The notes below the pieces were generated by a model. The model was not told the DNA's origin and did no database searches. It worked only from the letters and a program-made list of their open reading frames with translations. From assembly GCA_023151185.1 (NCBI GenBank), contig JAKLJL010000001.1, positions 558,001 through 622,000 of the forward strand: a stretch of 64,000 nucleotides of DNA. The letters run 5' to 3'. The DNA comes from Bacteroidota bacterium (GTDB lineage Bacteria; Bacteroidota; JABWAT01). Position 1 is the first letter of the stretch, and the number at the start of each line of letters is the position of its first letter. A program made the position numbers and the translations under genes. Below, piece after piece: positions 32,544 to 56,156 of the stretch.

Positions 32544-32582
32544 TAGATGCGTGCGAACGCAATCAAAAAACCAGGACTCACT

Positions 32583-34211
32583 GTGTTTGAAACTTTCGGC
32601 TTTCTGGATTCAACTGTTATACTGGTCTATTTCGCGGTAACGCTGGGAATCGGCCTGTATTTTGCCCGGAGGAAGGAATCCTCTGCAGTTGATTATTTCC
32701 TTGCCGGACGGAACATCGGGTGGGTTGCCGTTGGTTTTTCTCTGTTTGCAACAAATATCTCAAGTGAACACTTCCTCGGCCTGGCCGGATCGGGAGCAAA
32801 CCGGGGCCTTGCAGTCGGGAGTTTTGAATGGATGGCCATCTTCATTTTGGTTGTGATGGGATGGGTCGTCGCTCCGGTTTTCATCCGGCTGGGCGTGTTC
32901 ACTGTGCCTGAATATCTTGAAATCCGTTATGACCGCCGCAGCCGCGTCTACCTGACCTCCATCTCCCTTTTTGCCTACATTGTCACCAAAATTTCCGTGA
33001 TGCTGTTTGCGGCCGGTTTCCTTCTGAATCATATGCTGGGCTGGGATGTCTACACCACTGCGATTATTCTGGTTTTTCTTGCCGGAATTTACACGGTTGC
33101 CGGCGGACTGACTGCAGTTATTTACACCCAGATCTTCCAGACAGTTGTCCTGATTGCCGGTGCACTTCTGGTGACCTTTATCGGGCTGAATGAAGTCGGC
33201 GGATTTTCGGGACTTCAGGAAAAGCTGCCACCTGATTATTTTACCCTTTTTAAACCCATGTCGGATCCTGATTTTCCCTGGACCGGCATAATTTTCGGGG
33301 CCCCAATTGTGGGTTTCTGGTATTGGTGTACTGACCAGTATATCGTGCAGCGGGTTTTAGCATCGAAAAGCATTGATGACGCCAGAAAGGGAACCCTTCT
33401 GGCTGCTGCGTTTAAAATTCTCCCTGTTCTGATGTTGGTTGTTCCGGGATTGATTGCGGTTGCACTCTTCCCGGACGTTTCCGGAGATGAGGCTTACCCT
33501 GCGCTGCTGGAAAGTGACCTGCTTCCGGCAGGCGTAAGAGGATTGGTTGTTGCCGCCATCATTGCAGCCTTAATGTCTTCACTGGCAAGTGTGTTCAACA
33601 GTGCCGCCACCCTGTTCACCGTTGATTTTTACCAGCCCCGTCACCCCGAAACCTCCGAAAGAAAGCTGGTTCTGGTTGGACGCCTTGCCACCCTTTTTAT
33701 CACAATTACTGCTATCCTTTGGGTTCCGCTGACCAAACTGATTTCGACGAATATTTACATTTACATGCAAAGTATTCAGTCTTACATCAGTCCACCCATT
33801 GTTGCCGTCTTTCTTTTTGGTATCTTCAGTAAAAAAATGAATGCTTCAGGGGCATTCTGGTGCCTGATAACCGGTGGTGTTCTGGGTCTTTCCCGGCTGG
33901 TTATTGAGTTCATGGTGAACTCAGGAACTCTTACAGCGCCATGGGCAGTCAGTTTTGCCTCGCTGAATTACCTGCATTTTGCTATTTTGTTATTTTTACT
34001 ATGTACGGGTGTCCTGATTGCTGTCAGCCGGTTGACTGACAGCCAAACCACACAGCAGGCATCCGGACTGATGATTGCCGGGAAACAAATCCCGGACTCT
34101 TCCTATGCCCCGCTTCCGGCAAAAAAAACCGGCAGGTGGGCTAAACAGAATGTGTTTACATCAGTCATCATCTGTGTGCTTGTCATCAGTCTGATGGGAT
34201 TACTGGCATGA
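32583..34211 (+). CDS. Sodium/solute symporter (SSS family, sugar-type)
   Basis: The GTG at 32583 is chosen because AGGA lies 6 nt upstream and the predicted sigma-54 start point is downstream of the ATG at 32547. The product is about 542 aa with 13-14 membrane helices. Family motifs are YFLAGRNIGWVAVGFSLFATN (first part), ISSEHFLGLAGSG, GGLTAVIYTQIFQT, WYWCTDQYIVQRVLASK and the SSLASVFNSAATLFT segment of sodium binding. It resembles the sodium/glucose branch and probably imports a monosaccharide released by the locus enzymes across the inner membrane. Confidence 0.9.
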   Translation: MFETFGFLDSTVILVYFAVTLGIGLYFARRKESSAVDYFLAGRNIGWVAVGFSLFATNISSEHFLGLAGSGANRGLAVGSFEWMAIFILVVMGWVVAPVFIRLGVFTVPEYLEIRYDRRSRVYLTSISLFAYIVTKISVMLFAAGFLLNHMLGWDVYTTAIILVFLAGIYTVAGGLTAVIYTQIFQTVVLIAGALLVTFIGLNEVGGFSGLQEKLPPDYFTLFKPMSDPDFPWTGIIFGAPIVGFWYWCTDQYIVQRVLASKSIDDARKGTLLAAAFKILPVLMLVVPGLIAVALFPDVSGDEAYPALLESDLLPAGVRGLVVAAIIAALMSSLASVFNSAATLFTVDFYQPRHPETSERKLVLVGRLATLFITITAILWVPLTKLISTNIYIYMQSIQSYISPPIVAVFLFGIFSKKMNASGAFWCLITGGVLGLSRLVIEFMVNSGTLTAPWAVSFASLNYLHFAILLFLLCTGVLIAVSRLTDSQTTQQASGLMIAGKQIPDSSYAPLPAKKTGRWAKQNVFTSVIICVLVISLMGLLA

Positions 34212-34276
34212 GATTTCAGTCCGGTAATGATCACCTCGAATCGCAATCAACACCAAACAACTCATGGAGAATAAAC

Positions 34277-36925
34277 ATGAAACGACTGCTTACGACGCTG
34301 TTCGCACTTACTGCGATGGTCAGTCTGGCTTCCGCTCAATGGGCATGGGCCCCTCTGAACACAGGCCAGGGAAGTGACGAAACCTACGTTCCTTCGAAAG
34401 AAAACGCAGGTTATTATGATAACGGTCCGACAGCTTACTGTAAAATTTCTGATACTACTGTTTCCAAAGACGGCAAAGGCGCTTTCCACGTGAAATACCG
34501 TGTTGAAGCCGGCGACGGATGGGGCGGTTATGTAGTACGCGTTCACTTTAATGATCTCGCAACTGTTGGAAAAGCTGGATATTATGATCTTCAAGCCGGT
34601 AAATACCTGAGCTTCTGGATTAAAAACACGGTAAAACCAACTAAAGATCAGGCTGGTGACGTGAATTTTGAATGGAAACTGAAAGAAAAAGGCCTGACTG
34701 ATGGTGGTGAAGACCGTTGGGTTAAAGGATTCGGAACTATTCTGGAATCCTCACCGGATGAATGGACCCAGTTTACAGTTCCTCTGGAAGGTTCCGAGTG
34801 GAGCCGCCAGGCTGGAGATGCTGATGGAGAATTTACCCCATGGCAAACTTTCGGCTGGGAATTCGCAGTTGTTTACATTACTGCCGGCGGTGGAGCTACT
34901 CCTCCTGCAGTGACCGGTGAATTTATTCTTGACAACGTTCAGATTCTGGATCAACGGTTTACACCGGTTATGTCTTTCGACAACCAATCTGACACCACAT
35001 CCAACCGTTCCCGTAAAGATGCTACCTGGCTGCTCAATGATATGAGCTGGGATGGTGCTGCCGGTGCCCGCAAAATGGTTCTTTCCAATGAATCTGTTGA
35101 TACGGTTGAAGGTCTCGGTGCCATGAAGGCTGAATATGCCATCGTGGGTTCACAGGACTGGGGCGGATATGCTGAACTGGAACACGTTTTTGAAACTCCG
35201 GTTGATCTTTCCACCAATTCCGGTTTTGCTCTTTATGTTAAAACTCTGGTTGCCAATCAATTAACCGGCCGGTTTATGCTTCGTCTGGATGTTACCGATG
35301 AAGTAAACGGTGCACAGGAAATGTGGACAACCGTCATTAATGCTGATGTTGATCACGTTACCGACTGGCAATATGTTCAAATGCCGTTTGAATTAACCGA
35401 TACAGCCTGGACCAATCTGAAACCCGGTCACACCGGATTTACCAAACGGGAAGGGAATAACAACGGAATATTCGATCAGGATAAGATTAAAAAACTCCGG
35501 ATCGGGTTTATTGTTCTTCATAAAGCCGGTGAGCCTGTTGGTCCTAACGTAATCGCCAGCGGTACTCTTCTGTTTGACCTCTGGACACCAACCGGATACA
35601 GAGATATCGATATTACTGCTCCCGATCCTGTACAGGATGTTCTGGGTCTTGCAATTGAAGATGGCAAAAACTCTATCGTCTGGACTGATAATTCCGGCGA
35701 AGAAAAAGAAAAATACAATGTGTATTACAGCTATCAACCGATGACTGAAGACACTGATCTGAATGGTGAAGGCGTATTTGCCCTTGCTTCCCTGATCAAC
35801 GAATCAATCGGATCTGCCAGCCACGTCTTCTACAATCCGTTGGTACCGTCTACCTTCAAACATTACTATGCTGTTAACTGTGTTGACAAATCCGGTAATG
35901 TAGGAAAGCCTGGAGTATCTCCTGATGCAGTCTCGGGTGTTTCTAAAGCTGCTCCTGTTGTCAGCGATATGGCACCGGCTAACTTTGCTGCTGATGGCGA
36001 CCTGTCTGACTGGGCTTCCATTCCTGGCTGGACTCTGAAGATTTCTGATGGTTCCGCTACCGAAATCAATCCATCCTCCTGGGATATTGCAGATGACAAC
36101 GATGCTTCCATGGAAGCCAAAGTTGCCCTGGCCGATGGTAACCTTTATGTTGCCATGAAAGTAACTGACGACATCTATTTCGTGGATGCAACCAAAGCTT
36201 CCTATGAACAGGATGCTCCAGATTTGTTTATCGGTCTGTACAAATACCGCGGCAAGAACCATGTTGGATACAAGAGAGGTGAAACACCTGATTACCACTT
36301 CCGTTTCAACTTTGATAAAGTGACCAACGACCTGAACGGTACAACCGTTGCCGTACCCGGTGACAACTACAAATGGCTTCAAACTGCTACCGGATACACT
36401 CTGGAATGGAAAATGCCGATCGCTGATATGCTGGCCCTCTATGCCGGTGATGTCGCCACTTATGAAGTTGGCGATATGATTCCGCTTGACTTCATCCTGA
36501 ACGATGCCGATGAAACCGGCGCCCGTTCCGGTGGTCTGCGCTGGTCAGCCAGCAATGAAGATAACGGATGGAACAATGTAACTTCCTGGGCTTATACCTG
36601 GGTTGGACATAATGGTACCGATTTCAAATTCGTCAGTGTAGAAAACAATGGTTCTGCACCGGTAGAATTTGCTCTGAACCAAAACTATCCGAACCCCTTC
36701 AACCCTGCTACCACGATTCCTTTCAGCGTAAAGGTAAGCGGTAATGTTTCTCTGAAGGTTTACAACGTTCTGGGTGCTGAAGTTGCAACCCTGTTCAACG
36801 GATACAAAGAAGCTGGAAAACATGTTCAGTCCTTCGATGCCTCCAGTCTGTCCAGCGGTGTTTACTTCGTCCGCATGAATGCAACCGGATATACCTCAGT
36901 CATCAAAATGATGTACCTGAAGTAA
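34277..36925 (+). CDS. T9SS-exported surface glycan-binding protein, highly expressed type
   Basis: ATG 34277 follows GGAGA and gives a signal peptide MKRLLTTLFALTAMVSLASA, so upstream in-frame codons from 34208 are not used. The 882-aa protein has two CBM11-like modules (DGWGGYVVRVHF with KYLSFWIKNT, then QDWGGYAELEHVF), an FN3-like domain (about 460-560), a CBM9-like domain (FAADGDLSDWASIPGW, GNLYVAMKVTDDIYF) and a T9SS tail (QNYPNPFNPATTIPF ... IKMMYLK). No enzyme motif is seen. Codons are unusually biased (Arg CGT/CGC rather than CGG), suggesting heavy expression. It probably captures polysaccharide at the cell surface. Confidence 0.82.
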   Translation: MKRLLTTLFALTAMVSLASAQWAWAPLNTGQGSDETYVPSKENAGYYDNGPTAYCKISDTTVSKDGKGAFHVKYRVEAGDGWGGYVVRVHFNDLATVGKAGYYDLQAGKYLSFWIKNTVKPTKDQAGDVNFEWKLKEKGLTDGGEDRWVKGFGTILESSPDEWTQFTVPLEGSEWSRQAGDADGEFTPWQTFGWEFAVVYITAGGGATPPAVTGEFILDNVQILDQRFTPVMSFDNQSDTTSNRSRKDATWLLNDMSWDGAAGARKMVLSNESVDTVEGLGAMKAEYAIVGSQDWGGYAELEHVFETPVDLSTNSGFALYVKTLVANQLTGRFMLRLDVTDEVNGAQEMWTTVINADVDHVTDWQYVQMPFELTDTAWTNLKPGHTGFTKREGNNNGIFDQDKIKKLRIGFIVLHKAGEPVGPNVIASGTLLFDLWTPTGYRDIDITAPDPVQDVLGLAIEDGKNSIVWTDNSGEEKEKYNVYYSYQPMTEDTDLNGEGVFALASLINESIGSASHVFYNPLVPSTFKHYYAVNCVDKSGNVGKPGVSPDAVSGVSKAAPVVSDMAPANFAADGDLSDWASIPGWTLKISDGSATEINPSSWDIADDNDASMEAKVALADGNLYVAMKVTDDIYFVDATKASYEQDAPDLFIGLYKYRGKNHVGYKRGETPDYHFRFNFDKVTNDLNGTTVAVPGDNYKWLQTATGYTLEWKMPIADMLALYAGDVATYEVGDMIPLDFILNDADETGARSGGLRWSASNEDNGWNNVTSWAYTWVGHNGTDFKFVSVENNGSAPVEFALNQNYPNPFNPATTIPFSVKVSGNVSLKVYNVLGAEVATLFNGYKEAGKHVQSFDASSLSSGVYFVRMNATGYTSVIKMMYLK

Positions 36926-37000: not shown

Positions 37001-39643
37001 ATGAAAAAAATTCTATTGCTGTTTACCTGCATTTTTGCCCTGGCAGGTTTGGTCAATGCCTCGAATACAGGGAAAATTACCGGAACGGTCACCGACAGTA
37101 AGACAGGTGAAGCCGTTATCGGCGCCAATGTGATTGTGCTTGGAACCCATTACGGTGCAGCAACCGATCTGGATGGGAAATATTCAATTTATAACGTACC
37201 TCCCGGTGAGTACAAACTGGTCATCAGCTCGGTCGGTTACCAGAAAATCACCGTTTCAAAAGTTATTGTCAAAATCAACCTGACCACCCGTCAGGATGTT
37301 AAAATGGTGACAGAGGATATTCTGTCTGATGAAATTGTTGTTGAAGCTGAGGCTCCGCTTGTTCAGAAAGACTTAACCAGTACATCGGTTACGGTTACGT
37401 CTGCTGATATCAAGGCTATGCCGGTTGAAAACATGTTTCAGGTTGTCAATATGCAGGCCGGTGTTGTCGATGGCCACTTCCGTGGCGGCCGGAGCAACGA
37501 AGTCGGTTACCTGGTTGACGGAGTACCGGTAAATGATGTATATAACAACTCGGTTGCAGTCGGCGTTGAAAATGCTTCAATCCGTCAGCTTGAAGTGATT
37601 TCCGGGGCATTTAATGCAGAATATGGCCGGAATATGTCCGGTATCGTGAATATTGTTACTCAGGATGGATCCCTCGAAAAATATGAATCCAATTACTCTG
37701 TAACATTAGGGAATTATTATTCTTCAAATACAAAAATTTTCAGAAACCTGGATAATCCCTGGAATATCGCAACCAAGGATTATTCGGCTACTTTTTCAGG
37801 CCCGGTGCCGATGCTGGATGGTGTTTCATTTTTTGTCACCGGCCGGTATTATGACGACCAGGGTTATTTCTGGGGCAAACGGATCTATAATATTGCCGAC
37901 ACGGATTCTCTGTTCCCGATCAAGTTCATGACGAACACCGGGGATAAAAAATGGGTCCCGATGCAAACTTCCAAAAAGCTTTCTTTAAGCCCAAAAATTA
38001 CCTGGTCTACTGAAACCTTCAAGTTGTCATACAGTTTGTTTTATGATGACAATGAAAATCAGTATTACAGCCATGACTGGTCTTATTCACCCGACGGCCG
38101 GCTGACCCATTTCCGGACCAACTACGTCAATACAGTGAAATTTACCCATTTTCCTACCAGTTCTACTTTTCATGAGTTGTCTCTTGCCGCCAACATTCAC
38201 CGGTACAAAGGCTATCTGTATGAAAATGAGTATGATTCACGGTATGTAGATCCGAGTCTGGGCTCACCTGATGGAAATTACGCGTTCCGGTATGGCGGAA
38301 ATGATGGATCCCGGTATGAGCGATACACCAATTCCTATCTGGTTAAATGGCAACTCACTTCGCAACTGAACGACAAACATAAACTGGGCGCAGGAGCTGA
38401 AGTCCGTTTTCATGAGCTTTATGATCACGGTAAGTCCATTCAGTCCCGTTTTGCTGAAGATACTGTTTTCGTAGTCAGATATGCCCCTCTGCACTTTGGC
38501 GGAAACCAGCAATATCATGAAGATCCGCTTGAAATGGCCTTTTATCTTCAGGATAAAATGGAATATGATATGATGATTATCAATGCCGGACTCAGGTATG
38601 AGTATTTTGACCCCCGTTCCAGAATGCCGGCAGATTTGCAAAACCCAACCAGCAATCCATTGTATCCCGGCGGATGGGTGGGTTCAAAAGTCTCAACCCA
38701 ACTTTCCCCCCGTCTGGGCGTTTCCTTCCCGATTTCTGACCGGGGTGTCCTTCACTTTTCTTACGGACATTTCTTCCAGCCCCCCTCCTTCCAGCAGGCT
38801 TATCTGAATCATGAGTACTATATCAACGGCGGAAGCAGTGTCAGTACCCAGGTCGGAAATGCAAACCTGAAGCCAGAGAGTACCACGAGTTATGAATTCG
38901 GCCTTCAGCAAGCCCTTTCGGACGATATGGGATTTGAGACCACGATTTACTACCGGGATATCCGTAACCTGATCGGTGGTGAAATTTTAAAAACCTATGA
39001 TGGTCTGTACTATTCCAGATACATCAACCGGGACTACGGTAATGTTAAGGGATTCATTCTTTCCTATGATTACCGGTTGGCCAAATTACTTAAACTGACT
39101 GCAGATTATACCTATCAGATTGCAGAAGGGAATTCGTCCAATCCGAATCAAGCCTTTCAGGCTGCACAGGATGATGCCAAATTTATCGAGAAACACGTAG
39201 TTGCCCTTGACTGGGATCAGCGCCACACTCTGAATTTATCTGCCATCGTAACGGAAGAAACCTACGGGACCTTCTCCTTTATCTTTAATTACGGTTCAGG
39301 AAACCCATATACCGAGGACATCCGGCATACAGGTGGAATTACCGTGACCAACGGAGGCACAAAACCGGCTGTTTACTCATTTGATATGAGATATGACAAA
39401 GGATTTGAATTCCTTGATCTCCGGATGAATACCTTCGTCCTGATTTACAATGTGTTCAATATCGAGAATGAGTATGGCGTTTTCGGGTCAACCGGGCGTG
39501 CAACCAAAGATATCGAAGCAGAATACAACATCACGACCAACTACCAGGTTGCAGGGTATAACACCATCCGGGACTATATCAATGATCCCACCCGGTATTC
39601 CGGCCCCAGAACCATCAAAGTTGGCTTGAATTTTTCCTTGTAA
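37001..39643 (+). CDS. TonB-dependent outer-membrane receptor
   Basis: The 880-aa protein has a signal peptide (MKKILLLFTCIFALAGLVNA) and an N-terminal CarboxypepD_reg-like domain (KITGTVTDSKTGEAVIGANV, YNVPPGEYKLVISSVGY). A plug domain (VTSADIKAMPVENMFQVVNM, GGRSNEVGYLVDGVPVNDVY, FNAEYGRNMSGIVNIVTQDG) and a long aromatic-rich beta-barrel ending IKVGLNFSL follow. It should import oligosaccharides using TonB energy. The two genes that follow encode a surface partner and a PorV-like barrel, but no SusD gene is found. The layout is SusC-like in position only. Confidence 0.92.
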   Translation: MKKILLLFTCIFALAGLVNASNTGKITGTVTDSKTGEAVIGANVIVLGTHYGAATDLDGKYSIYNVPPGEYKLVISSVGYQKITVSKVIVKINLTTRQDVKMVTEDILSDEIVVEAEAPLVQKDLTSTSVTVTSADIKAMPVENMFQVVNMQAGVVDGHFRGGRSNEVGYLVDGVPVNDVYNNSVAVGVENASIRQLEVISGAFNAEYGRNMSGIVNIVTQDGSLEKYESNYSVTLGNYYSSNTKIFRNLDNPWNIATKDYSATFSGPVPMLDGVSFFVTGRYYDDQGYFWGKRIYNIADTDSLFPIKFMTNTGDKKWVPMQTSKKLSLSPKITWSTETFKLSYSLFYDDNENQYYSHDWSYSPDGRLTHFRTNYVNTVKFTHFPTSSTFHELSLAANIHRYKGYLYENEYDSRYVDPSLGSPDGNYAFRYGGNDGSRYERYTNSYLVKWQLTSQLNDKHKLGAGAEVRFHELYDHGKSIQSRFAEDTVFVVRYAPLHFGGNQQYHEDPLEMAFYLQDKMEYDMMIINAGLRYEYFDPRSRMPADLQNPTSNPLYPGGWVGSKVSTQLSPRLGVSFPISDRGVLHFSYGHFFQPPSFQQAYLNHEYYINGGSSVSTQVGNANLKPESTTSYEFGLQQALSDDMGFETTIYYRDIRNLIGGEILKTYDGLYYSRYINRDYGNVKGFILSYDYRLAKLLKLTADYTYQIAEGNSSNPNQAFQAAQDDAKFIEKHVVALDWDQRHTLNLSAIVTEETYGTFSFIFNYGSGNPYTEDIRHTGGITVTNGGTKPAVYSFDMRYDKGFEFLDLRMNTFVLIYNVFNIENEYGVFGSTGRATKDIEAEYNITTNYQVAGYNTIRDYINDPTRYSGPRTIKVGLNFSL

Positions 39644-39658
39644 GAGTGGAGTAATCAC

Positions 39659-42600
39659 ATGTTAAAGAAAATTTTTATTCTGTTCAGTCTGCTCGCAGCA
39701 GCGCTGCCTGAACTTTCTTCTGCACAAACTGTGGATCCTGAAGCGGCACGTTACCGTGCGGATCAGATGGGAAGTTACATTCACCGTAAAGAAGGGATCA
39801 TGGATGGGAACCTGGTAAAGACCCTTTTCTATAATACCGGTGAAGTGGCTCAATGGCCATTCTCTCCTTCAGGCGAATGGCCGAAGGGAACCGGGATCGA
39901 CTACGTCGACGGTATCTGTATGATTGTGACAGCCCGTGCCAAATCGCTCCGGACTGACCGCGAAAGATACATGACCCCCGTTGAGACGTTCTACCGGGAA
40001 GAAATGGATATTACAACGACTGTTCCTGCAAATCTGGTCAATGAGGCCTGGGGCTGGAATCCGGTTCCCGGCTATTCGAACCTGCTGACCACCATTCCGG
40101 CAATGAGTATTGAGACCAGCAGCTGGCCGCCAACCTGGCCTGCTGCACTTGATTTACCTTCAACCTACGATGGTAACTGGTACGGTTATTTTGGCCGCGG
40201 AATCTTCAATGCCGATCTGGAAACTTTTTTCGTCATGGATGATTCCAAAGATGCAGAATGGACCAAGTATCCTAACTTTTTCTATCCGATTATCAGCGAT
40301 GCACCGAAGAAAAATGACGGTACTTATGATTACGCCAACGGAACCCAATGGTACAATCCGGATATCCGGAAAGGGTTGGGACTCCGGGTCGAAACCCGTG
40401 GTTTCCAATGGTCCCAGGCCCTTGCCGAAGACATTATTTTCTGGCATTATGATATCTCCAACCTGGGTGACCATGATTATGACTCCACCTTTTTCGGTTT
40501 TTATACAGATACCGGTCTCGGTGGTGATGTTGACAACGGTGATGATAACGCCGGCTACGATTCAGAACTGGATTTGACCTGGGGCTATGACTATGACAAC
40601 ACTATTTCGGGACGCCCGGATGTTGTTCTTGGTGTTTATGGGTATGCTTATCTGGAATCCCCCGGTAATTCAAATGATGGCAGAGACAATGATGAAGACG
40701 GGTTGGTGGATGAACGGCGCGACGATCCGGATGAAGCTACTGAATTAACCGTTACCAATGGAAAAACCCATTTTAAAGCAGACGAAGACGGTGACTGGCA
40801 GCCCTTTATGGATTTAAACGGCGACGGTGTCTGGACAATTTATTCAGCCCCGGGTGCCGAAAATTTCAGTGCTGAACCGTTGCTTGATGACGTCGGAAAG
40901 GATGGCGTTGGCGCCTTTGACGAGCCCTGGGACTCGGTTAAAAAAGCTTTTAAAACCCACGTACCCGATGCTGGAGAAGGGAATGGCAGACCCAATCAGG
41001 GAGAACCCAATTACGGAAAACTGGATAAAGATGAATCTGATCAGATTGGTTTGACCTCGGTCGTCATTGAAGAACTTTCCGGGAAAACTGTACGGGACAT
41101 CTGGCCACGGAATGACGAAGTCATCTGGGACCGGATGAGTTCTGCCAAGTTTGACACTTCAATTCAACGGAAAAACATCCAGATTCTGTTTGGTTCCGGT
41201 CCGTTTTTGTTGAGAGGTGCAATTAACTCTGATGGATACGGACGTGAACGCTTTTCAATGGCCCTGCTTTTCGGCGAGGATAAGGAAGATCTGGTTTTCA
41301 ACAAAAAAACCGTTCAGATCATTTACAATGCCGGTTACAACTTTACCAAACCACCCCTTACTCCGATTCTGACCGCCCGTGCCTCAGACAAAAAGGTTTA
41401 TCTGAGCTGGGACAGCCGTGCTGAAGAATCACGTGACCCAATTCTGGGATATGAAAACAACGACCCGGCTCAGGGTCCAAGAAAAGATTTTGAAGGGTAT
41501 GCGCTTTACAGAAGCACTGAACCGGAATTTGCAGACGTTAAAACGATCACCAATTCAAAAGGTGTTCCCCAGTACTACAAGCCGATTAAAAAATGGGATT
41601 TGATTGATGGTATCGAAGGTCCTGATCCGGTCGGAATTCTGGGTGCTGCTTATTACCGTGGCGACGAAACCGGGTTAAGCCATGCTTATATCGATGAAGA
41701 TGTAAAAAATGGGGTAACTTATTATTATGCGCTGGTTTCTTATGACCAGGGTGTTTCGGCAGATACGGCCGCCTTCAGAATTCAGCCGACTGAAAGTCCG
41801 AAAACAATTAAACGGGCTAATTCAGGCGTCATCACCTTCGTGGATCAAAACTGTGCAGTGGTCACCCCGAATGCCCCGGCACTGGGATATGTACCGGCAT
41901 CCTTCACTCTCGATCAGACTCCTGACCAGGGAACCGGAACCATGGATATTATTGCAGTTGATCCCGGAAAAATCAGAGATGATGTGAAATACAAAATCGT
42001 TTTTGATACAACCGGTACCTTTCCGTTCTATGAAACCTCGGGTGCAATTGTTATCCGGAATGATGTCGACACGCTTGGTGTACGGATAAAAGAAGACCAG
42101 ATCGGAACCGATATCAATGAAAAAGCAACAGATGTCTTCGATGGGGTAGCAGTTCAAATCAAAAACTCCAGAAAAACGGCAGTTTTAGGAGAGCAATCGA
42201 CCTGGGTGTCTGGAAATTCGGCAAATTTACCGACCATTCTGGCCTACCAAACTCCTGTACCGCCGGTATCTTACGGCCCGATGTATTATTTCTACATTAC
42301 CGGAAAATCAACACCCAACCCCTACTACAAGTACTTTGGCGGTGATTATGAAATTGAGTTTTTTGACTCGATGGTTGATTCTTCATTAAAGACAGAGAAT
42401 AAAACTGACCATTACTTCCAGAAACGGCCTGTTAATTTCAAAATCAAGAATATTACCAGCGGGAAGTATGTTGACTTTAATGTCTGGCTGCCATTGGCAT
42501 ACCGGGATTCTGTGAATCTGGTTCCGGATGGTACAACCAAGATCATCATCGTGGAATATGCAACCAGTGTTGAATCGGGCGAAACCGCAGAACGGTGGCC

Positions 42601-43075
42601 GGTTATGTTCCAGTACGGGATGTCCGGCGACGAGAATAAGGCCAGGCCGAAGGCTGGTGATAAATTCAGAATCCGGATTGAGAAAAAATTCGTGAAGGGA
42701 GATTCGTTTACCTTCACAACTAAAGCCGAATCAATGAATAAGTCAGCAGCCAAATCGGCTTTGAATTCAATCAAAGTAGTGCCGAACCCGTACATTTCTG
42801 CAGCCACCTGGGAACCGGCACAGTATAAGGTTACCGGCCGTGGTGAACGTAAAATTGATTTTATCCACCTGCCCAGTACCTGTACCATCCGGATCTATAC
42901 CCTTTCGGGTAAACTGGTGAAAACACTTGAAAAAACCGAATCATTGGCAAACGGAGCAGTTTCCTGGAATCTGATCAGCGATGACGGTATGGATGTTGCC
43001 TATGGGCTTTATATTTATCATGTAGATGCCCCGGGTGTTGGTGAACATATCGGCAAATTTGCCCTGATCAAGTAA
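39659..43075 (+). CDS. Large secreted partner of the TonB receptor with Ca-binding motifs
   Basis: This 1138-aa protein has a signal peptide (LFSLLAAALPELSSAQ). A mixed N-terminal region includes acidic calcium-type repeats (NDGRDNDEDGLVDERRDD, DLNGDGVW), an FN3-like segment (PILTARASDKKVYLSWDSRA ... GYALYRSTEPEF), and a VVPNPY-type tail (SIKVVPNPYISAATWEP, then CTIRIYTLSGKLVKTLEK, ending GKFALIK). That tail is a T9SS-type C-terminal domain variant common in FCB lineages. It starts 15 nt after the receptor and may form the surface lid that SusD provides elsewhere. No enzyme motif was recognised. Confidence 0.65.
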   Translation: MLKKIFILFSLLAAALPELSSAQTVDPEAARYRADQMGSYIHRKEGIMDGNLVKTLFYNTGEVAQWPFSPSGEWPKGTGIDYVDGICMIVTARAKSLRTDRERYMTPVETFYREEMDITTTVPANLVNEAWGWNPVPGYSNLLTTIPAMSIETSSWPPTWPAALDLPSTYDGNWYGYFGRGIFNADLETFFVMDDSKDAEWTKYPNFFYPIISDAPKKNDGTYDYANGTQWYNPDIRKGLGLRVETRGFQWSQALAEDIIFWHYDISNLGDHDYDSTFFGFYTDTGLGGDVDNGDDNAGYDSELDLTWGYDYDNTISGRPDVVLGVYGYAYLESPGNSNDGRDNDEDGLVDERRDDPDEATELTVTNGKTHFKADEDGDWQPFMDLNGDGVWTIYSAPGAENFSAEPLLDDVGKDGVGAFDEPWDSVKKAFKTHVPDAGEGNGRPNQGEPNYGKLDKDESDQIGLTSVVIEELSGKTVRDIWPRNDEVIWDRMSSAKFDTSIQRKNIQILFGSGPFLLRGAINSDGYGRERFSMALLFGEDKEDLVFNKKTVQIIYNAGYNFTKPPLTPILTARASDKKVYLSWDSRAEESRDPILGYENNDPAQGPRKDFEGYALYRSTEPEFADVKTITNSKGVPQYYKPIKKWDLIDGIEGPDPVGILGAAYYRGDETGLSHAYIDEDVKNGVTYYYALVSYDQGVSADTAAFRIQPTESPKTIKRANSGVITFVDQNCAVVTPNAPALGYVPASFTLDQTPDQGTGTMDIIAVDPGKIRDDVKYKIVFDTTGTFPFYETSGAIVIRNDVDTLGVRIKEDQIGTDINEKATDVFDGVAVQIKNSRKTAVLGEQSTWVSGNSANLPTILAYQTPVPPVSYGPMYYFYITGKSTPNPYYKYFGGDYEIEFFDSMVDSSLKTENKTDHYFQKRPVNFKIKNITSGKYVDFNVWLPLAYRDSVNLVPDGTTKIIIVEYATSVESGETAERWPVMFQYGMSGDENKARPKAGDKFRIRIEKKFVKGDSFTFTTKAESMNKSAAKSALNSIKVVPNPYISAATWEPAQYKVTGRGERKIDFIHLPSTCTIRIYTLSGKLVKTLEKTESLANGAVSWNLISDDGMDVAYGLYIYHVDAPGVGEHIGKFALIK

Positions 43076-43088
43076 GGAGAATTGAAGA

Positions 43089-44114
43089 ATGAAAAAGACA
43101 CTTTTACTAACCGTTCTGCTTGTACTTGGTTTTTCAGTTCAGGCGCAGCAATTTGTTGAGAACGTATCTAAACGCGGAACTACAGCCGGACAGTTTCTTC
43201 ACCTTGGAATGGGTGCAAGAGCGTTGGCAATGGGTTCTGCCTTTACTGCAATCGCCGATGATCCGTCGGCGGTTTACTGGAATCCGGCGGGAATTACCCG
43301 CCTGAAGGGGATTCAAACCATGTTCGATCATACCCAATGGCTTGCCGGCATTAATTATAACTTTTTTGCCGTTACCATGGGTATGGGTGATTATGGAAAC
43401 CTGGGTGTTTTCTATGTCGCATCTGATATTGACGATATGGAAAAAACAACGGTTGATTCGCCGGAAGGAACCGGGGAAATTTTCAGTGTCAAGGATGTTG
43501 CCGTCGGCGTAACCTACGCCCTGGCCCTGACTGATAAATTCAGCGTTGGGTTAACGCCCAAGGTTGTCTATCAATCGATTTACAACACCAGTGCGCTTGG
43601 ATTTGCTGCCGATCTGGGTGTCTTGTATGAAACACCGTTTGAGGGATTTACTCTTGGCGCAGGAATTTATAATCTTGGCACACAGATGCAGTTAACCGGA
43701 AATGCCCTTTACCTCACCCATGATCCTGATCCTAAAAACTCGGGAACAACCGGTGATGCACCTGGGTATTATGAGACCAGCAAGTTTCACCTTCCGGTCA
43801 ACTTTAAAGTAGGACTTTCCTACCTGGCTGTTAAGGATGAGTTTAATAAACTTCTTCTGTCTGCTGAAGCATCACACCCCTCTGACGATTATGAAAGTGT
43901 AAATCTTGGCGGTGAATATGTTTATGCCGATTTTCTGAGCCTCAGAGCTGGTTATAATGAACTTTTTCAAGAGGACTCTGAAAAAGGATTTACAGTCGGC
44001 GGTGGTATAAAACAAGCGATTTACGGTGTTTTTAATGTTGCCATCGATTATTCCTATATGGATTTCGGCCGGCTGAAAAACACTCAGAAATTCACCATCG
44101 GTCTCATTTTCTAA
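43089..44114 (+). CDS. PorV/PorQ-like outer-membrane beta-barrel
   Basis: The 341-aa protein has a signal peptide and the family start GTTAGQFLHLGMGARALAMG, followed by AIADDPSAVYWNPAGI. That pattern is characteristic of PorV/UPF0164-type barrels related to FadL. Alternating strands run to the C-terminal IGLIF. PorV shuttles T9SS cargo to the attachment machinery, and related barrels accompany specific receptors. Its place directly after the receptor and its partner, with AAGGAG ahead of its ATG, suggests a dedicated transport or assembly role for this locus. Confidence 0.82.
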   Translation: MKKTLLLTVLLVLGFSVQAQQFVENVSKRGTTAGQFLHLGMGARALAMGSAFTAIADDPSAVYWNPAGITRLKGIQTMFDHTQWLAGINYNFFAVTMGMGDYGNLGVFYVASDIDDMEKTTVDSPEGTGEIFSVKDVAVGVTYALALTDKFSVGLTPKVVYQSIYNTSALGFAADLGVLYETPFEGFTLGAGIYNLGTQMQLTGNALYLTHDPDPKNSGTTGDAPGYYETSKFHLPVNFKVGLSYLAVKDEFNKLLLSAEASHPSDDYESVNLGGEYVYADFLSLRAGYNELFQEDSEKGFTVGGGIKQAIYGVFNVAIDYSYMDFGRLKNTQKFTIGLIF

Positions 44115-44125
44115 AAAGGTATGCT

Positions 44126-45955
44126 ATGCACAAGGTTCTTGCTGTTTTAACACTTTTTTTGATTTCAAATTCAGCGATTGCAGCAAAACCGTATAAAGGT
44201 GCAGAATACCGGACCAAGGCGGCCTATCTGTATGGCCGCTTTGAAGTCAGAATGAAATCGACCCCCAATGAAGGTGTTCTGTCGACGTTTTTTACCTACT
44301 TCGACGGAACACCCGATAATCCCTGGGCGTCAGGAAAATGGAATGAAATTGATATTGAGATCATCGGCCGGTACAGGAATGATGTTCAGCTCAATACCAT
44401 CACCCCCAACCAGATCAGCCACGTAAGTCATATCTGGACCGATTTTGATCCTGCCCAGGATTACCACACCTACTCGATTGAATGGACTCCCGACTACGTA
44501 AGCTGGTTTATTGACGGTGTTCTTGTCAGAAAACAAACGGGCGAACACATCAGCACACTGGTTTATCCCCAGAAAATCATGATGAATACCTGGAATCCGG
44601 AGTATAAGGACTGGGTCGGAACATTTGAACCTAAAAGCCTGCCTGCTTTCACTTACTATGACTGGGTCAGTTACTCTTCCTATACACCTGGAACCGGAAC
44701 TACAGGTGAAGGGAACAACTTTACTCCGGAATGGACGGATTCCCTGACCGCTTTTGATGCCGACAGATGGGAAAAAGCAACACACACCTTTATTGGCAAC
44801 AACTGTGACTTTGTTACTGCAAATGCTGTTTTTGATAACGGCAAACTGGTTCTTTGCCTCACCGATGCCGTCAATACCGGATACAAGGATGTATTGCCGC
44901 CGTCATTGACCGGTGCTGTTCTTACCGACTCAACCCTGTCTATCCGGTACAGTGAACCGGTTTCTGCAGAAAAAGCACTGGTTCCCGGCAATTACCAAAT
45001 TCCCGGATTGACAGTTAAAGAAATTAAAAAAACAAAAGATCCGGCCGTTTTTAATCTCCAGGTTTCAAAACCGGACGTGGCCAAGTCGTATAAACTCTAT
45101 GCAATCGGTCAAACGGACCTGTTTTCTGCTCCCAATACCATGGCTACTTCTCAACTTACTGTCACCCAGATTCCCAAACCAACCTTTCCGTTATACATCA
45201 ACGCCGGTGGGGCAAAGGCTGCTTACCAATATAAAGCCGACAAAACTTTTGCCTTTAATACTGATTTCGGCGGGTCTGACGGGAAACTGTTAACCTTTTC
45301 GGGTGCAGTAAAGGGAACTGAACTGGATTCTGTTTATCTCTACGACCGTGATAACCTGGCCATGTATCAGGTCAGGGTTCCTCCTGGTAAGTACCGGGCG
45401 GTTCTGATGTTTGCCGAAAAGTATTATACCTCATCGGGAAAGCGGATCATGGATATTACGGTTGAAGGGTCTGCCCTGCAAAAAAAGGGAATCGACGTGT
45501 ATTCAAAGGTTGCTGACTGGACCGCTTATGATGTCAGTTTCGGTCCGGTTGAAGTAACAGACGGGATTCTCGATATTCATTTTTCGTCCGTGGTCGGGTA
45601 TCCGATTTTATCCGGAATCCGGGTTGATTATTTTGGTCCGGCTACCCATGTTGAAACCGGAAGTACGGCCATTCCCGACAAGCTTGAACTGATCGGGAAT
45701 TACCCCAACCCCTTTAATGGTACCACCACTTTCCGATTTTTGTCTTCACGCCGTGAACCCGCAGCCATTAAAATATTCGATACTCTGGGGCGCCAGATTT
45801 ATGAAGGATTTGCAGGAAACACCTCTGCGGATGAACAAACCTTCCAGTGGTCTGCCAGGACAACGGCCGGGCAGGGCATTGCCTCCGGAACTTATTTCTG
45901 CCGGATTACTTCCGGGGAAAAATCACTTGTAGTTCCCGTCGTTTATATAAAATAA
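44126..45955 (+). CDS. Circularly permuted GH16 beta-1,3-1,4-glucanase with T9SS tail
   Basis: After the signal peptide (609 aa in all) the protein starts at the part of lichenase that is internal in Bacillus enzymes: GAEYRTKAAYLYGRFEVRM, then catalytic WNEIDIEIIG (E74 nucleophile, D76, E78 acid/base) and IMMNTWNPEYKDWVG. The usual N-terminal strand follows only at about 199-248 (FTPEWTDSLTAFDADRWEKA, DNGKLVLCLTD). This is the order known from Fibrobacter succinogenes glucanase. An Ig-like domain, a malectin-like module (INAGGAKAAYQYKADKTF, then MFAEKYYTSSGKRIMDI) and a T9SS tail (GNYPNPFNGTTTFRF) follow. It probably cuts mixed-linkage glucan at the surface. Confidence 0.88.
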   Translation: MHKVLAVLTLFLISNSAIAAKPYKGAEYRTKAAYLYGRFEVRMKSTPNEGVLSTFFTYFDGTPDNPWASGKWNEIDIEIIGRYRNDVQLNTITPNQISHVSHIWTDFDPAQDYHTYSIEWTPDYVSWFIDGVLVRKQTGEHISTLVYPQKIMMNTWNPEYKDWVGTFEPKSLPAFTYYDWVSYSSYTPGTGTTGEGNNFTPEWTDSLTAFDADRWEKATHTFIGNNCDFVTANAVFDNGKLVLCLTDAVNTGYKDVLPPSLTGAVLTDSTLSIRYSEPVSAEKALVPGNYQIPGLTVKEIKKTKDPAVFNLQVSKPDVAKSYKLYAIGQTDLFSAPNTMATSQLTVTQIPKPTFPLYINAGGAKAAYQYKADKTFAFNTDFGGSDGKLLTFSGAVKGTELDSVYLYDRDNLAMYQVRVPPGKYRAVLMFAEKYYTSSGKRIMDITVEGSALQKKGIDVYSKVADWTAYDVSFGPVEVTDGILDIHFSSVVGYPILSGIRVDYFGPATHVETGSTAIPDKLELIGNYPNPFNGTTTFRFLSSRREPAAIKIFDTLGRQIYEGFAGNTSADEQTFQWSARTTAGQGIASGTYFCRITSGEKSLVVPVVYIK

Positions 45956-45970: not shown

Positions 45971-48304
45971 ATGAAACGTTTCAGTTCACTCTTCCTTTTT
46001 CTGGGATCTGCCGGACTTGCTTTACAGGTCCAGGCTCAGGAAGCTACTTTGCAGGCAACCTTTTCCCTGAAAACAGTAAACGGAGTAACCGTTCCCGTAC
46101 AAAACGGACTGGCGGTTCCTTCCTTTGACGGGCAGAACCGGCCGGTGATATCGCTCAACGGGACCTGGAAAAAGCAAAGAGTCACAGCCAATGATGCACT
46201 AACCCTGATTAAAAGAACCCCTGAGGCCATTGCTGCCCTTGAAACTGAATCAGATGGCCGGTATCAGACCGATTATGATGATTCAGCCTGGGAAACCAAA
46301 ACCCTGCCCGGCGTCGAAAATACACTGAACGGGTATGAAACTGTACCTGAATATTATGAAGACGGAGTTTGGTACCGGAAATCCTTTTTTGTAGAAGAAA
46401 GTTTAAAGGTTAAAAAGGCGGTTCTGAAGTTTCTGGCTGTGAATTATGTGGGTGATGTCTGGATTAACGGAAAGTATGTGGGCTACCATGAGGGCGGATA
46501 TACTCCTTTTGCGTTTAATGTGACCTCCTTTCTCAATTTCGGAGCTGAGAATAAACTCGCCGTCCGGGTTGACAATCCGGCATGGGGGACCCGGAATGAC
46601 ATCGTTCCCTACGGAAAGGTTGACTGGTTCAACTATACCGGAATCATCCACGATGTCACACTGGAATTTGTTCCTTCCGTTCATATTGTCAGGACGGACG
46701 TTGTTCCGCAGTCAGTTGACGGAACACTTTCCGTTAAACTGGTTGCCGGATCAGAAAACCAGGACGGTGGTTCCTTCACTGCTGAAGTAACTGCCTATCA
46801 GGCGTCGGTCACGGCAGCAAACCGGCTGTCCTTTTTTGCTAGTGATCTGGTTGGAACTCCGGTTACCCTGACAGGTGAAACCACTTTTCCGGTCTCCTTT
46901 TCGTCAGGGGATTCTCTTGCAGCTGTCGAAAAAACGCTGACGATTCCAAAACCCAGGTTATGGGTCCCAAAATCCCCCTCTTTATATATTCTGAAAGTTG
47001 TCCTGAAGAAAGACGGGACGGCCGTTGATGAGTATTACACCCAGTTCGGAATCCGGACAGTAACCGCATCAGGAAATAAAATTCTTCTGAACGGGGTTGT
47101 GACGTTTTTCCCAGGTGTGGCCCGCCACGAAGACCATCCGGATTATGGCCGGTCAGTTCCACCTTCTGTGACCTGGTCTGATTTTGAACTGATTAAAAGT
47201 CTGAATGTGACGATGGTCAGAACCTCTCACTATCCCAACCATCCGTATGTGTATCAGGCTGCAGACCGGATCGGACTTGCAATTGTTGAAGAAATTCCGG
47301 TTTGGCAGTTCGACCGGCCAGAAAATTTTATCATCCAGAATGAACGGAGAAAAATTGCCCACCAGATGTGGCGTGAAATGATTTTCAGAGACTTCAACCG
47401 ACCGTCCATTTTTCTCTGGAGCGGTCAGAATGAAAGCCTTGAACTGACCAACCGGACGGTTTTCCTCCAATCGATCCATCAGGACCTGGATACCAATTAC
47501 CCGGATGGCCGTTTGGTGACACAATCTGCCGCAGCTGACCGTCCCGGCCCCGAAGACACAAGTCAGGATGTTGTGGATGTCGCAGGATGGACCATGTATT
47601 TTGGTGTGTTCTATGGCAATAAAGCCGAACCGGATACAAAGGCCTTCCTTTCTGCTGCTCAGAAGGCCCACCCGCAAAAGCCCATTTTAAACACGGAATA
47701 TGGTATCTGGGATACAGAAAGCCACAATGCCCAGCAAAAGCAAAATGAAGTATTTGATAATACTTTCAGAGCACTTGAAGCTTATGCAGCCAGAAATAAA
47801 TCCGGAAAAGTTGCAGATACAACAGCCGTCATGGCTGCAACCTGGTGGTGTGTTTTCGATTGGTACCGGCATGGATCCGGAGCCGGAAATACAGGATTCC
47901 AAACCATGGGACTTTATCAGATGAACCGGACGACAGCCAAAACAGTTGCTTCCACTCTGAAAACCAGGTACTCCATTTATGCGTTGACCCAGCCGGTAAA
48001 TACAGTTGTAGCAGCAGAGCAATCACCAGATGGATTTGATCTTGAGCCAGCCTATCCGAATCCGTTTAACCCGGAAACAACTATCGGATTTACCCTGACG
48101 GAATCCAGCCCTGTTACCCTCACAGTTTTTGATGTGACCGGAAGGGAAATTGCGGTACTGATCAGCGAAACGCTGCCGGCCGGGCATCACGTCCATCATT
48201 TCAATGCAGCCCAATCCGGCATTCCGCTTGGTTCCGGACTTTATTTTTACCGCCTTTCTACCCCGGCAACATCCAAAACTGCCAAAATGATTCTGATCAA
48301 ATAA
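45971..48304 (+). CDS. GH2-family glycoside hydrolase with T9SS tail
   Basis: The 777-aa protein has a signal peptide (LALQVQAQ) and a sugar-binding jelly roll with WYRKSFFVEE and DVWINGKYVGYHEGGYTPF. An Ig-like immunoglobulin domain and a TIM barrel follow. Catalytic candidates are E488 in LWSGQNESL (acid/base) and E576 in PILNTEYGIW (nucleophile). The family includes beta-galactosidase, beta-glucuronidase and beta-mannosidase, and the motifs do not decide among them. The C-terminus is a T9SS tail (AYPNPFNPETTIGFTL ... AKMILIK), so it acts on the cell surface. It begins 15 nt after the GH16 gene. Confidence 0.88.
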   Translation: MKRFSSLFLFLGSAGLALQVQAQEATLQATFSLKTVNGVTVPVQNGLAVPSFDGQNRPVISLNGTWKKQRVTANDALTLIKRTPEAIAALETESDGRYQTDYDDSAWETKTLPGVENTLNGYETVPEYYEDGVWYRKSFFVEESLKVKKAVLKFLAVNYVGDVWINGKYVGYHEGGYTPFAFNVTSFLNFGAENKLAVRVDNPAWGTRNDIVPYGKVDWFNYTGIIHDVTLEFVPSVHIVRTDVVPQSVDGTLSVKLVAGSENQDGGSFTAEVTAYQASVTAANRLSFFASDLVGTPVTLTGETTFPVSFSSGDSLAAVEKTLTIPKPRLWVPKSPSLYILKVVLKKDGTAVDEYYTQFGIRTVTASGNKILLNGVVTFFPGVARHEDHPDYGRSVPPSVTWSDFELIKSLNVTMVRTSHYPNHPYVYQAADRIGLAIVEEIPVWQFDRPENFIIQNERRKIAHQMWREMIFRDFNRPSIFLWSGQNESLELTNRTVFLQSIHQDLDTNYPDGRLVTQSAAADRPGPEDTSQDVVDVAGWTMYFGVFYGNKAEPDTKAFLSAAQKAHPQKPILNTEYGIWDTESHNAQQKQNEVFDNTFRALEAYAARNKSGKVADTTAVMAATWWCVFDWYRHGSGAGNTGFQTMGLYQMNRTTAKTVASTLKTRYSIYALTQPVNTVVAAEQSPDGFDLEPAYPNPFNPETTIGFTLTESSPVTLTVFDVTGREIAVLISETLPAGHHVHHFNAAQSGIPLGSGLYFYRLSTPATSKTAKMILIK

Positions 48305-48317
48305 CTACGGAAATATG

Positions 48318-50534
48318 ATGAAAAAACTATCTCTGATCACCTTTATTCTGTTGATGGCAATGAACCTCTTTTCCCAGACAACCCAAACCCAGGTTAAAGA
48401 CCTGGTATCCAAAATGACCCTCGAAGAAAAAGTCGGGCAAATGACCCAGGTTACCTTCGATGTGATCGGGAAACCGGAAAATGAAAATGACGGATTCCCG
48501 GTGGATATGAAAAAACTGGAAACAGCCATTCTGACCTATCATGTCGGGTCTATACTGAATACTCCCTACAACAAAGCCCAAACGGTTGAAACCTGGAACA
48601 AAATTATCTCTACCGTGCAGGATGTATCAAAGAAAACCCGTCTTCAGATTCCGGTGCTTTATGGAATTGATGCCATTCACGGTACGACCTACACCCGGGG
48701 TGGTACCCTGTTTCCGCAGGCAATCAATATGGGAGCCACCTTTAATCCGGAACTCAGCCGTGCAGCCGGTGCTGTAACAGCTAGAGAAATGAAAGCCTCC
48801 GGAATGACCTGGAATTTTTACCCGGTTCTTGATATTGGCCGTCAGCCACTCTGGAGCCGGTTCTGGGAAACTTACGGTGAAGATGTTCATGTTGCAGCCG
48901 TTCATGGGACTGCCTATATCGATGGTCATCAGGGAAGTGATTATTCCAAACCTGACAAAGCCCCGACCTGCATGAAACACTACACCGGTTACGGATTTCC
49001 TCTGAACGGAAAAGACAGAACTCCGGCCTGGATCGGTGAAAAAACCCTGCGTGAAATTTATCTGCCCTCCTTTGAAGCCGCCATTAAAGCCGGTTCGCCG
49101 ACGATCATGATCAATTCAGGTGAAATTGACGGAATTCCGGGTCATGCCAATTATCACTTACTGACTGAAATTCTGCGGGATGAACTCAAATTTGAAGGAA
49201 TTGCAGTTTCAGACTGGGAAGATATTGTGAGATTATATGCCCGGGATAAAGTGGCCGCTTCACCTGAAGAAGCCGTGAAAATGGCTGTCATGGCCGGTGT
49301 GGATATGAGTATGGTTCCCTACAATTTCAGTTTTTATGATATCCTGCTGAAACTGGCTAAAAACGGGGATGTTCCCATGAGCCGGATCGATGAAGCGGTT
49401 TCCCGGATTCTGAAAGTTAAAATCGAAAGCGGATTGCTCAGGGATCCCTATCCGCAAAAACAACTGATCAGTCAGTTTGCCAATAAAGAAGCTACTGAAC
49501 TGAATCTGGCTGCTGCCCGTGAATCGATAGTTCTCGCCAAAAATGAAAACCAGGTTCTTCCGCTGAAAAAGGATGCAAAAATTCTGGTTACCGGTCCGAC
49601 CGCAAATCTCCTTCAGGTCCTCAACGGCGGATGGACAGTGACCTGGCAGGGAGATGATGAACCGTTGTATCCACAGGAAAAACAAACTGTTCTTGAGGCT
49701 GTTCAGGCAGCGTCGAAGGGAACTGTGACTTATGTTGAAGGGACTACGTTCAATCAGTCTGTGAACATTCAGGAGGCGGTTACAAAAGCAGCTCTGAACG
49801 ATGTTATTCTGCTCTGTCTTGGTGAAAAAGCCTATTGTGAAACACCGGGAAATATCGAAAACCTGACCCTCGATCAAGCCCAGCTTGACCTTGCCTCAGC
49901 CCTGCTTGCCACCGGAAAACCGGTTATCCTTGTTTTGCTTGAAGGACGACCAAGAGTCATAACTCCGATCGCTGAAAAGGCTCAGGCTGTTGTTGTTGCC
50001 ATGCGTCCCGGAATGGAAGGTGCGGTTGCCCTTGCCGATATTTTATTCGGAAATTACAATCCGGATGCCAAACTGCCATTTTCTTATCCCAGAAATACCA
50101 ATGGATTTTCAACCTACGATTACAAACCGCTCGAAGTATACGACGGCAATGTGGTGAATCCGCTGTACCCATTCGGTCACGGACTCAGCTATACGACTTT
50201 TGAACTTTCCGGTCTGACTCTTGGAAAGAAGGAAATCAAACCGGGTGAAGGTCTGGAAGTCAGTGTTACAGTAAAAAATACCGGGACCCGCGCCGGGAAG
50301 GAATCAGTTCTGATTTATCTGAACGATCAGGCCGCCCAGGTCTCACGGCCTGTTAAGCAGCTAAAAGCGTTTAAAAAGGTTGCGCTTGCACCGGGTGAAA
50401 GCCAGGTTGTGAAATTTAAACTGACGGATGCTGACTTCTCCTATATCGGACTTAAAAACCACCGGATTGTTGAGCCCGGAAAGTTCACCGTCTTTTCTGG
50501 TACTCTGAAAGACGAATTTACCCTTTTACCCTGA
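48318..50534 (+). CDS. GH3-family beta-glucosidase
   Basis: ATG 48318 has GGA 6 nt upstream, and the adjacent ATG at 48315 is possible. The roughly 738-aa protein has a signal peptide and the two-domain GH3 catalytic core. LYGIDAIHGTTY and KHYTGYGFPL bind the sugar, and FEGIAVSDWEDI carries the nucleophile (about D299). A C-terminal FnIII-like domain (LEVSVTVKNTGTRAGKESVLIYL) ends the protein. There is no T9SS tail, so a periplasmic location is likely. It would release glucose from cello- or laminari-oligosaccharides produced by the GH16 enzyme and imported by the receptor. Confidence 0.92.
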   Translation: MKKLSLITFILLMAMNLFSQTTQTQVKDLVSKMTLEEKVGQMTQVTFDVIGKPENENDGFPVDMKKLETAILTYHVGSILNTPYNKAQTVETWNKIISTVQDVSKKTRLQIPVLYGIDAIHGTTYTRGGTLFPQAINMGATFNPELSRAAGAVTAREMKASGMTWNFYPVLDIGRQPLWSRFWETYGEDVHVAAVHGTAYIDGHQGSDYSKPDKAPTCMKHYTGYGFPLNGKDRTPAWIGEKTLREIYLPSFEAAIKAGSPTIMINSGEIDGIPGHANYHLLTEILRDELKFEGIAVSDWEDIVRLYARDKVAASPEEAVKMAVMAGVDMSMVPYNFSFYDILLKLAKNGDVPMSRIDEAVSRILKVKIESGLLRDPYPQKQLISQFANKEATELNLAAARESIVLAKNENQVLPLKKDAKILVTGPTANLLQVLNGGWTVTWQGDDEPLYPQEKQTVLEAVQAASKGTVTYVEGTTFNQSVNIQEAVTKAALNDVILLCLGEKAYCETPGNIENLTLDQAQLDLASALLATGKPVILVLLEGRPRVITPIAEKAQAVVVAMRPGMEGAVALADILFGNYNPDAKLPFSYPRNTNGFSTYDYKPLEVYDGNVVNPLYPFGHGLSYTTFELSGLTLGKKEIKPGEGLEVSVTVKNTGTRAGKESVLIYLNDQAAQVSRPVKQLKAFKKVALAPGESQVVKFKLTDADFSYIGLKNHRIVEPGKFTVFSGTLKDEFTLLP

Positions 50535-50597
50535 TGTGAGGAGTTCCCGGCAGGGAGACCTGACGGGAGATGACTGAAAGCAGCAAAGCAGTTGACT

Positions 50598-56125: not shown

Positions 56126-56156
56126 ATCCTGAACAGGTAAATTAAAGGACTACGTT

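Follow-up and report, generated by a model that had tools for sequence, protein, structure and literature searches.

The standard example of a glycan importer in Bacteroidota is SusCD. In the window, the whole 64,000-nucleotide stretch of DNA analyzed here, a TonB-dependent receptor (TBDT) gene lies among genes for glycan use and is followed by the gene for a partner protein, which the first-pass annotation put forward as a candidate functional replacement of SusD. The locus raises the question of whether this partner stands in for SusD or serves an importer of a different kind.

The partner gene and its product

The receptor, the partner with its segments, and the gene behind it were assigned as follows:

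37001..39643, + strand: TonB-dependent receptor with a CarbopepD_reg_2 N-terminal extension, member of the cassette clade (profiles and tree)
39659..43075, + strand: partner protein, 1138 aa, ATG start
39659..39724, + strand: predicted signal peptide, cut after SSA at residue 22, without a lipobox Cys (partner sequence)
39752..41344, + strand: N-terminal beta-supersandwich domain, residues 32-562 (structure model and fold matches)
40667..41041, + strand: residues 337-461, a conserved acidic insert whose DxDxDG-like motifs, at 343 and 385, resemble calcium loops (alignment of relatives)
41345..41818, + strand: FN3-like segment, residues 563-720 (FN3 structures among the Foldseek matches)
41819..42757, + strand: beta-rich region, residues 721-1033 (full-length model)
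42758..43072, + strand: PorU/PorZ-like T9SS C-terminal domain, residues 1034-1138 (tail profiles)
43089..44114, + strand: outer-membrane barrel of the PorV/PorQ family, which would shuttle and anchor the partner (NF033709, 205 bits, cut-off 90)

The partner ORF begins 15 nt after the receptor ORF, and the ORF coordinates thus bear out both this spacing and the very large size that had been annotated for the protein. The partner protein was searched against public genomes, and 78 loci were kept, from Ignavibacteria, other Bacteroidetes-labelled genomes and Candidatus Neomarinimicrobiota; most of the encoded relatives were 35-63% identical to the partner over near-full length, and one was 88% identical. 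Since relatives are encoded at 78 loci, we regard the ORF as a genuine gene. Pfam profile searches matched the partner to no family at E<=1, and NCBIfam gave only weak matches to T9SS tails. A lipobox-like pattern was present in the first 60 residues of one of 68 aligned relatives. The partners of four loci (L033, L035, L042, and L052) had a longer N-terminus (1140-1171 aa) than those of near relatives.

Alignment of the relatives also upheld the EF-hand-like acidic repeats noted at first pass. DxDxDG-like motifs averaged 1.83 per row in 94 aligned relatives versus 0.19 in composition-preserving shuffles, and D343, D345, D347, D351, and E352 were kept in 91-94 of the 94 rows. The invariant acidic residues of the partner include E188, E333, E352, and E459. 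The annotated FN3 segment fared less well, as FN3 structures were among the Foldseek matches but Pfam fn3 gave no match in the partner at E<=1, and on the basis of the model we describe residues 563-720 as FN3-like by fold only.

Modelled fold of the partner

The AlphaFold2 model of the full partner (68 sequences) had a pLDDT of 78.9 and a pTM of 0.74. In this beta-rich model 104 (9%) of the 1115 mature residues were helical and 370 (33%) were in strands, and, with the signal peptide excluded, only two helices had a length of at least 8 residues, in agreement with the earlier remark that the TPR-like helices of SusD were not evident. When residues 32-562 were modelled alone (94 sequences), the pLDDT rose to 88.5 and the pTM to 0.89. 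All 50 VIA-align matches listed for this region were carbohydrate-active enzymes (Z 15.2-19.8, with 212-273 residues aligned at 2.9-4.0 A), among them dextran dextrinase, glucoamylase, cyclic glucan synthase, GH94, GH116, GH149, GH65 and similar enzymes, and Foldseek returned the same kinds of enzyme (E 1.5e-5). With the full model as query, Foldseek placed PorZ at the top, followed by FN3/complement-type matches of low TM-score, an outcome that does not decide the fold. SusD was absent among the Foldseek and VIA-align matches listed for the full model and for residues 32-562, although this absence is no proof in itself.

Catalysis in the matched enzymes, which are of the GH15/GH94/GH116 type, resides in an alpha/alpha barrel, and the part matched by the partner is what we take to be the supersandwich domain located ahead of that barrel. 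The N-terminal supersandwich domain was present in the partner model; the (alpha/alpha)6 catalytic barrel was not found in the full model, from which any helical barrel was absent. As modelled, the N-terminal half of the partner folds like the beta-supersandwich of these enzymes without the catalytic barrel. This match is evidence on the predicted fold and not on binding.

The C-terminal tail and the adjoining barrel

The last 105 residues of the partner scored 17.1 bits with TIGR04183 (T9SS type A sorting domain), below the cut-off of 23, and fitted the PorU tail better. The same tendency was seen in the tails of 31 relatives, which at E<=0.01 matched the PorZ profile in 29 cases, the PorU profile in 27, and TIGR04183 in 15. 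When the genome's own PorU tail was used as query, the window partner was matched at E 4e-7; for four further T9SS cargo tails encoded in the window, E ranged from 0.002 to 0.75. The surface-attachment tail of the first-pass annotation is therefore retained, its type being established by the PorU/PorZ-profile matches. The genome has genes for T9SS (SprA, 1360 bits; PorU, 756 bits), and from its C-terminal sorting domain and the T9SS-bearing host the partner is predicted to be T9SS cargo.

The main addition to the first-pass annotation is the PorV/PorQ-family gene directly downstream of the partner. Its product did not reach the PorQ, PorV, or PorVQ2 equivalog cut-offs. Ten PorV-family genes of the genome were over the family cut-off; six of them adjoin cassette-clade TBDTs and one adjoins PorU. 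Passages of PMC10202324 report that the PorU tail stays uncleaved and bound to PorV, and that the PorZ tail is retained and binds PorQ. As the partner has a PorU/PorZ-like tail and the barrel gene lies downstream of it, we infer by analogy that the barrel encoded at 43089 would be both shuttle and anchor of the partner.

A conserved three-gene cassette

TBDT, partner, and PorV genes form a conserved three-gene cassette across many bacterial families, an order established directly from the loci. Neighbors were scored with one profile for each of the three window proteins. At 75 of the 76 close loci with room for it, and at 36/39 distant loci, a TBDT was located at most 300 nt upstream of the partner. 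A PorV-family gene was located at most 400 nt downstream at 70/72 close loci with room and at 38/39 distant loci. The distant loci were chosen from 18 families of the phylum, with L247, a weak relative in the window's own genome, excluded; contigs that end there removed L062 and L072 from the TBDT tally and six loci from the PorV tally. The median gap between TBDT and partner was 9 nt for the close and distant sets together. Of the 394 genomes sampled from the phylum, 138 had a match to the partner-family profile at E<=1e-30. Chance adjacency of partner and TBDT is rejected by the TBDT counts in the two sets.

Several loci departed from the common arrangement. L044 had no TBDT match within 7.9 kb, the TBDT was at 490 nt in L211 and at 1680 nt in L213, TBDT and partner overlapped by 326 nt in L212 (given the chosen start), and L232 had no PorV match. 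The PorV gene was further off in L024 and L048, because the partner ORF is split in the former and two partners lie in tandem in the latter (L048:7929-14379, with one TBDT, then the two partner genes, then one PorV-like gene).

Variants were also observed within the window's own genome. On C21 (L130:2926-10685) the order was altered to TBDT-PorV-partner, with genes for a PPIase and a GH26 protein after it. On C20 (L128:1574-7184) a cassette-clade TBDT was followed by a PorV-like gene, the partner being absent; the start of this TBDT contains the end of a 589-aa ORF that begins like a lipoprotein and matches no Pfam family. Two tandem ORFs of 1106 aa on C22 (L256:109-6658), apparently near-identical, had the partner-type tail and no clear supersandwich match. 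Tandem half-size relatives of 587 and 597 aa on C26 (L146:9663-13235) consisted of the supersandwich part and a standard Por_Secre_tail, with no TBDT nearby, and the weak relative at L247 had neither TBDT nor PorV beside it.

Identity between cassette copies of one genome was 33-52% whichever part was compared (TBDT, supersandwich, FN3-like part, or PorV), and in six of seven compared copy pairs at least one copy had a single nearest relative for every gene part or for all except one. For most copies, this nearest relative belonged to a cassette of like kind in another place. Based on these identities and shared nearest relatives, the three genes seem to have been co-inherited, as a unit, through ancient duplications. 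The distance correlation between TBDT and supersandwich was 0.77 (at most 0.18 in 200 permutations), and the partial correlations with the TBDT over 102 triads were 0.17 for the supersandwich, 0.50 for the FN3-like segment, and 0.64 for PorV. The correlation of 0.77 is no proof of contact, because shared descent explains most of it, as the partial value indicates.

Relation to SusC and SusD

The receptor scored 68.6 bits against the SusC model TIGR04056, whose cut-off is 368.25. In a tree of 77 TBDTs, all 54 cassette TBDTs and that of L128 fell in one clade (SH-aLRT 100), and the eight SusCs, which were those taken beside SusD genes, formed a separate clade (support 100). This grouping was not built in, because the loci had been collected by partner similarity, although any TBDT with a cassette-profile score below 60 bits would have escaped. 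Fourteen of the 15 partnerless TBDTs of the own genome were outside the cassette clade, although the placement of these rows is unsure because the tree was made by a quick method and several of them are long branches. Judged by this tree, the cassette TBDTs form a clade of their own, apart from SusC. As the receptor is not a SusC, no SusD slot needed refilling. Of the 20 TBDTs compared in the own genome, the five with a partner measured 819-983 aa and the 15 partnerless ones 732-1116 aa, the former being the longer group (Mann-Whitney p 0.03).

Homology of the partner to SusD is rejected, as there was no SusD profile match, the model is beta-rich, and the lipobox Cys is absent. Searches for SusD itself found no PF07980 in the own genome or the other three genomes of its class, and no PF12771 in these four or in 20 named cassette-bearing genomes; in the latter 20, PF07980 gave one weak partial match (G402, 68 of 297 positions). 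A SusD profile made from seven SusDs matched no ORF at E<=10 in 126 cassette-related stretches. Among the 394 genomes, 72 had partner and SusD, 66 partner only, 140 SusD only, and 116 neither, at cut-offs that differ between the two (partner E 1e-30, SusD E 1e-3). Mutual exclusion at the genome level is rejected, as neither avoidance nor attraction was seen (Fisher p 0.67). Nor is SusD missing from all Ignavibacteria, because SusC/SusD/SusE genes are reported in the genome of Melioribacter roseus in a passage of PMC3534657. The cassette exists alongside SusCD and, in some lineages, alone.

The proposal of a functional replacement of SusD is therefore sustained in part. It draws support from TBDT adjacency conserved across families, predicted surface export, a carbohydrate-enzyme-type fold, the glycan context, and the lack of a SusD profile match in the own genome and the three others of its class. 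Against it are the receptor, which is not a SusC, the genomes that carry both partner and SusD (72/394), and the half-size relatives without a TBDT; because of the last two, "replacement" is too strong a word.

Glycan context of the cassette

The other genes around the cassette in the window were the following:

32547..34211, + strand: sodium:solute symporter, SSF (Pfam)
34208..36925, + strand: CBM9-type protein with Por_Secre_tail, which may be a further glycan binder at the surface (Pfam)
44126..45955, + strand: GH16 beta-glucanase with malectin domain and Por_Secre_tail (Pfam, NCBIfam)
45971..48304, + strand: GH2 with Por_Secre_tail (Pfam)
48315..50534, + strand: GH3
50592..52463, + strand: PPIC-type peptidyl-prolyl isomerase
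52572..54770, + strand: GH92
54812..57128, + strand: MFS transporter and ROK-family kinase/regulator

Across the loci, the cassette neighbors varied by TBDT subclade and were often glycan-related. The window-type subclade had GH16/SSF/GH3; an ABC solute-binding protein and permeases were beside the cassette in L208, L210, L211, L213, L241, and L242; GH144 was beside it in L209, L212, L227, L233, and L234; and CBM20 or amylase proteins were near it at nine of the 39 distant loci (including L218, L223, L231, L235, L243, and L246). At least one listed glycan-type gene was present at 58/78 close loci and at 13/39 distant loci, CBM20 being uncounted in the distant set. Some distant loci had a PPIase (13/39) or an LTD/LamG protein (5/39) nearby rather than a clear glycan gene, and some TBDT subclades had no evident glycan genes close by. 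The PPIC-type isomerase recurs near the cassette, in the window, at L130:10789-12195, and at these 13 distant loci; a PPI fold is also found in BamM of the Flavobacterium BAM complex.

Proposed mechanism and alternatives

We consider it probable that the partner is a surface glycan-binding protein exported by the T9SS, that it serves a dedicated subfamily of TBDTs, and that a PorV/PorQ-like barrel of its own keeps it in place. By analogy, it would act like SusD without being a SusD homologue. The partner would be made with a signal peptidase I signal, leave the cell via T9SS through its C-terminal domain, and be retained on the outer membrane by the 43089 barrel, as PorU is on PorV and PorZ on PorQ. 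Its supersandwich would derive from a GH15/GH94-type carbohydrate enzyme minus the catalytic barrel and would be stiffened by the calcium loops. Oligosaccharides released by the surface GH16 and GH2 enzymes would be bound by the supersandwich and handed to the adjoining TBDT, and periplasmic enzymes with the SSF and MFS carriers would complete glycan use. We infer glycan binding, calcium binding, anchoring on the barrel, and contact with the TBDT. Counting against this TBDT-partner reading are the weak partial correlation of the supersandwich with the TBDT (0.17), the distant loci that have a PPIase or an LTD/LamG protein in place of a clear glycan gene, the TIGR04183 score of the window tail below its cut-off, and the supersandwich modules in tailed proteins without a TBDT (L146, L247).

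The half-size relatives without a TBDT are also among the points in favor of an accessory surface glycan-binding protein (SusE/SGBP-like), a partner on the surface that does not touch the TBDT, which works alone. Many non-SusC TBDTs function lidless, the cassette TBDT is not SusC-like, and a tailed CBM9 protein is encoded on its other side. However, the fixed slot beside one TBDT clade, seen at 36/39 distant loci, is stricter than an accessory binder would predict, and we consider this explanation unlikely. We find it more doubtful still that the partner is a true SusD-like lid, forming with the TBDT a hinged clamshell over the channel while the PorV-like protein is merely a shuttle: its operon position is that of SusD and the own-genome TBDTs with a partner are the longer ones, but its fold and export route differ from those of SusD and the N-terminal lipid is absent.

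Catalysis on glycans by the supersandwich or another part of the partner appears very improbable. The fold is that of enzyme N-domains and several acids are invariant, including the four glutamates given above, but the beta-rich model is without the alpha/alpha barrel that holds catalysis in the matched enzymes and many of the invariant acids sit in calcium-type loops.

The reading of the partner as a barrel-held surface glycan binder can be extended to a broader proposal, to which we give somewhat less than an even chance. The cassette may represent a third type of outer-membrane nutrient importer that evolved independently within the wider Bacteroidota/Marinimicrobia group, in which a TBDT subfamily of its own would be combined with a T9SS-exported binder built from a disarmed glycoside-hydrolase-type domain and with a dedicated PorV/PorQ-like barrel that delivers the binder and keeps it by the channel. 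Its copies would serve different glycans, in parallel to SusCD or instead of it.

Comparison with known systems

Titles and abstract openings in the open-licence literature yielded no description of a TBDT-partner-PorV cassette, which is weak evidence of novelty. The cassette resembles SusC/SusD (RagA/RagB) in that the TBDT gene is directly followed by that of a surface partner in a glycan-use operon, with paralogous copies in differing glycan contexts. It differs in that its TBDT lies outside the SusC clade and its partner is beta-rich, has no lipobox, is predicted T9SS cargo, and is encoded beside a PorV-like barrel. In BtuB/BtuG of Bacteroides, for which stable complexes are reported in PMC10404256, a TBDT that is not a SusC likewise has a surface partner that is not a SusD, but BtuG is a surface lipoprotein for vitamin B12, whereas the cassette partner is without a lipoprotein signal and has another context.

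In PorU-PorV and PorZ-PorQ, according to passages of PMC10202324 and PMC5562754, a surface CTD protein is held on a PorV/PorQ-family barrel by its uncleaved CTD, and the tail here is PorU/PorZ-like; those pairs process T9SS cargo, whereas the cassette pair is encoded with a TBDT and enzymes acting on glycans. A similar arrangement exists for type B CTD cargo and its PorP/SprF-like barrels, where the cognate barrel gene directly follows that of the cargo and the barrel is shuttle and anchor (PMC9143113 and PMC12618676). In the cassette, unlike in that system, the tail belongs to the type A/PorU kind and the barrel to the PorV/PorQ family; according to PMC12618676, type A tails all use a single PorV. 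In BamG-BamH of the Flavobacterium BAM complex, a FadL/PorV-type barrel bears a surface protein on an extracellular pillar, although there the surface protein, BamH, is a lipoprotein and belongs to the BAM machine (PMC12611786).

Biological significance

If the proposed mechanism is true, a second sugar-capturing partner would exist at the cell surface of these bacteria, with another fold, another route to the surface, and another anchor than SusD. It would classify a family that is unannotated, with no Pfam matches, and present in 138/394 sampled genomes, and PorV/PorQ paralogues would gain a role beyond protein secretion. This partner would be used by deep relatives without SusD (Ignavibacteria, Neomarinimicrobiota, and some others) as well as by many SusD-bearing genomes.
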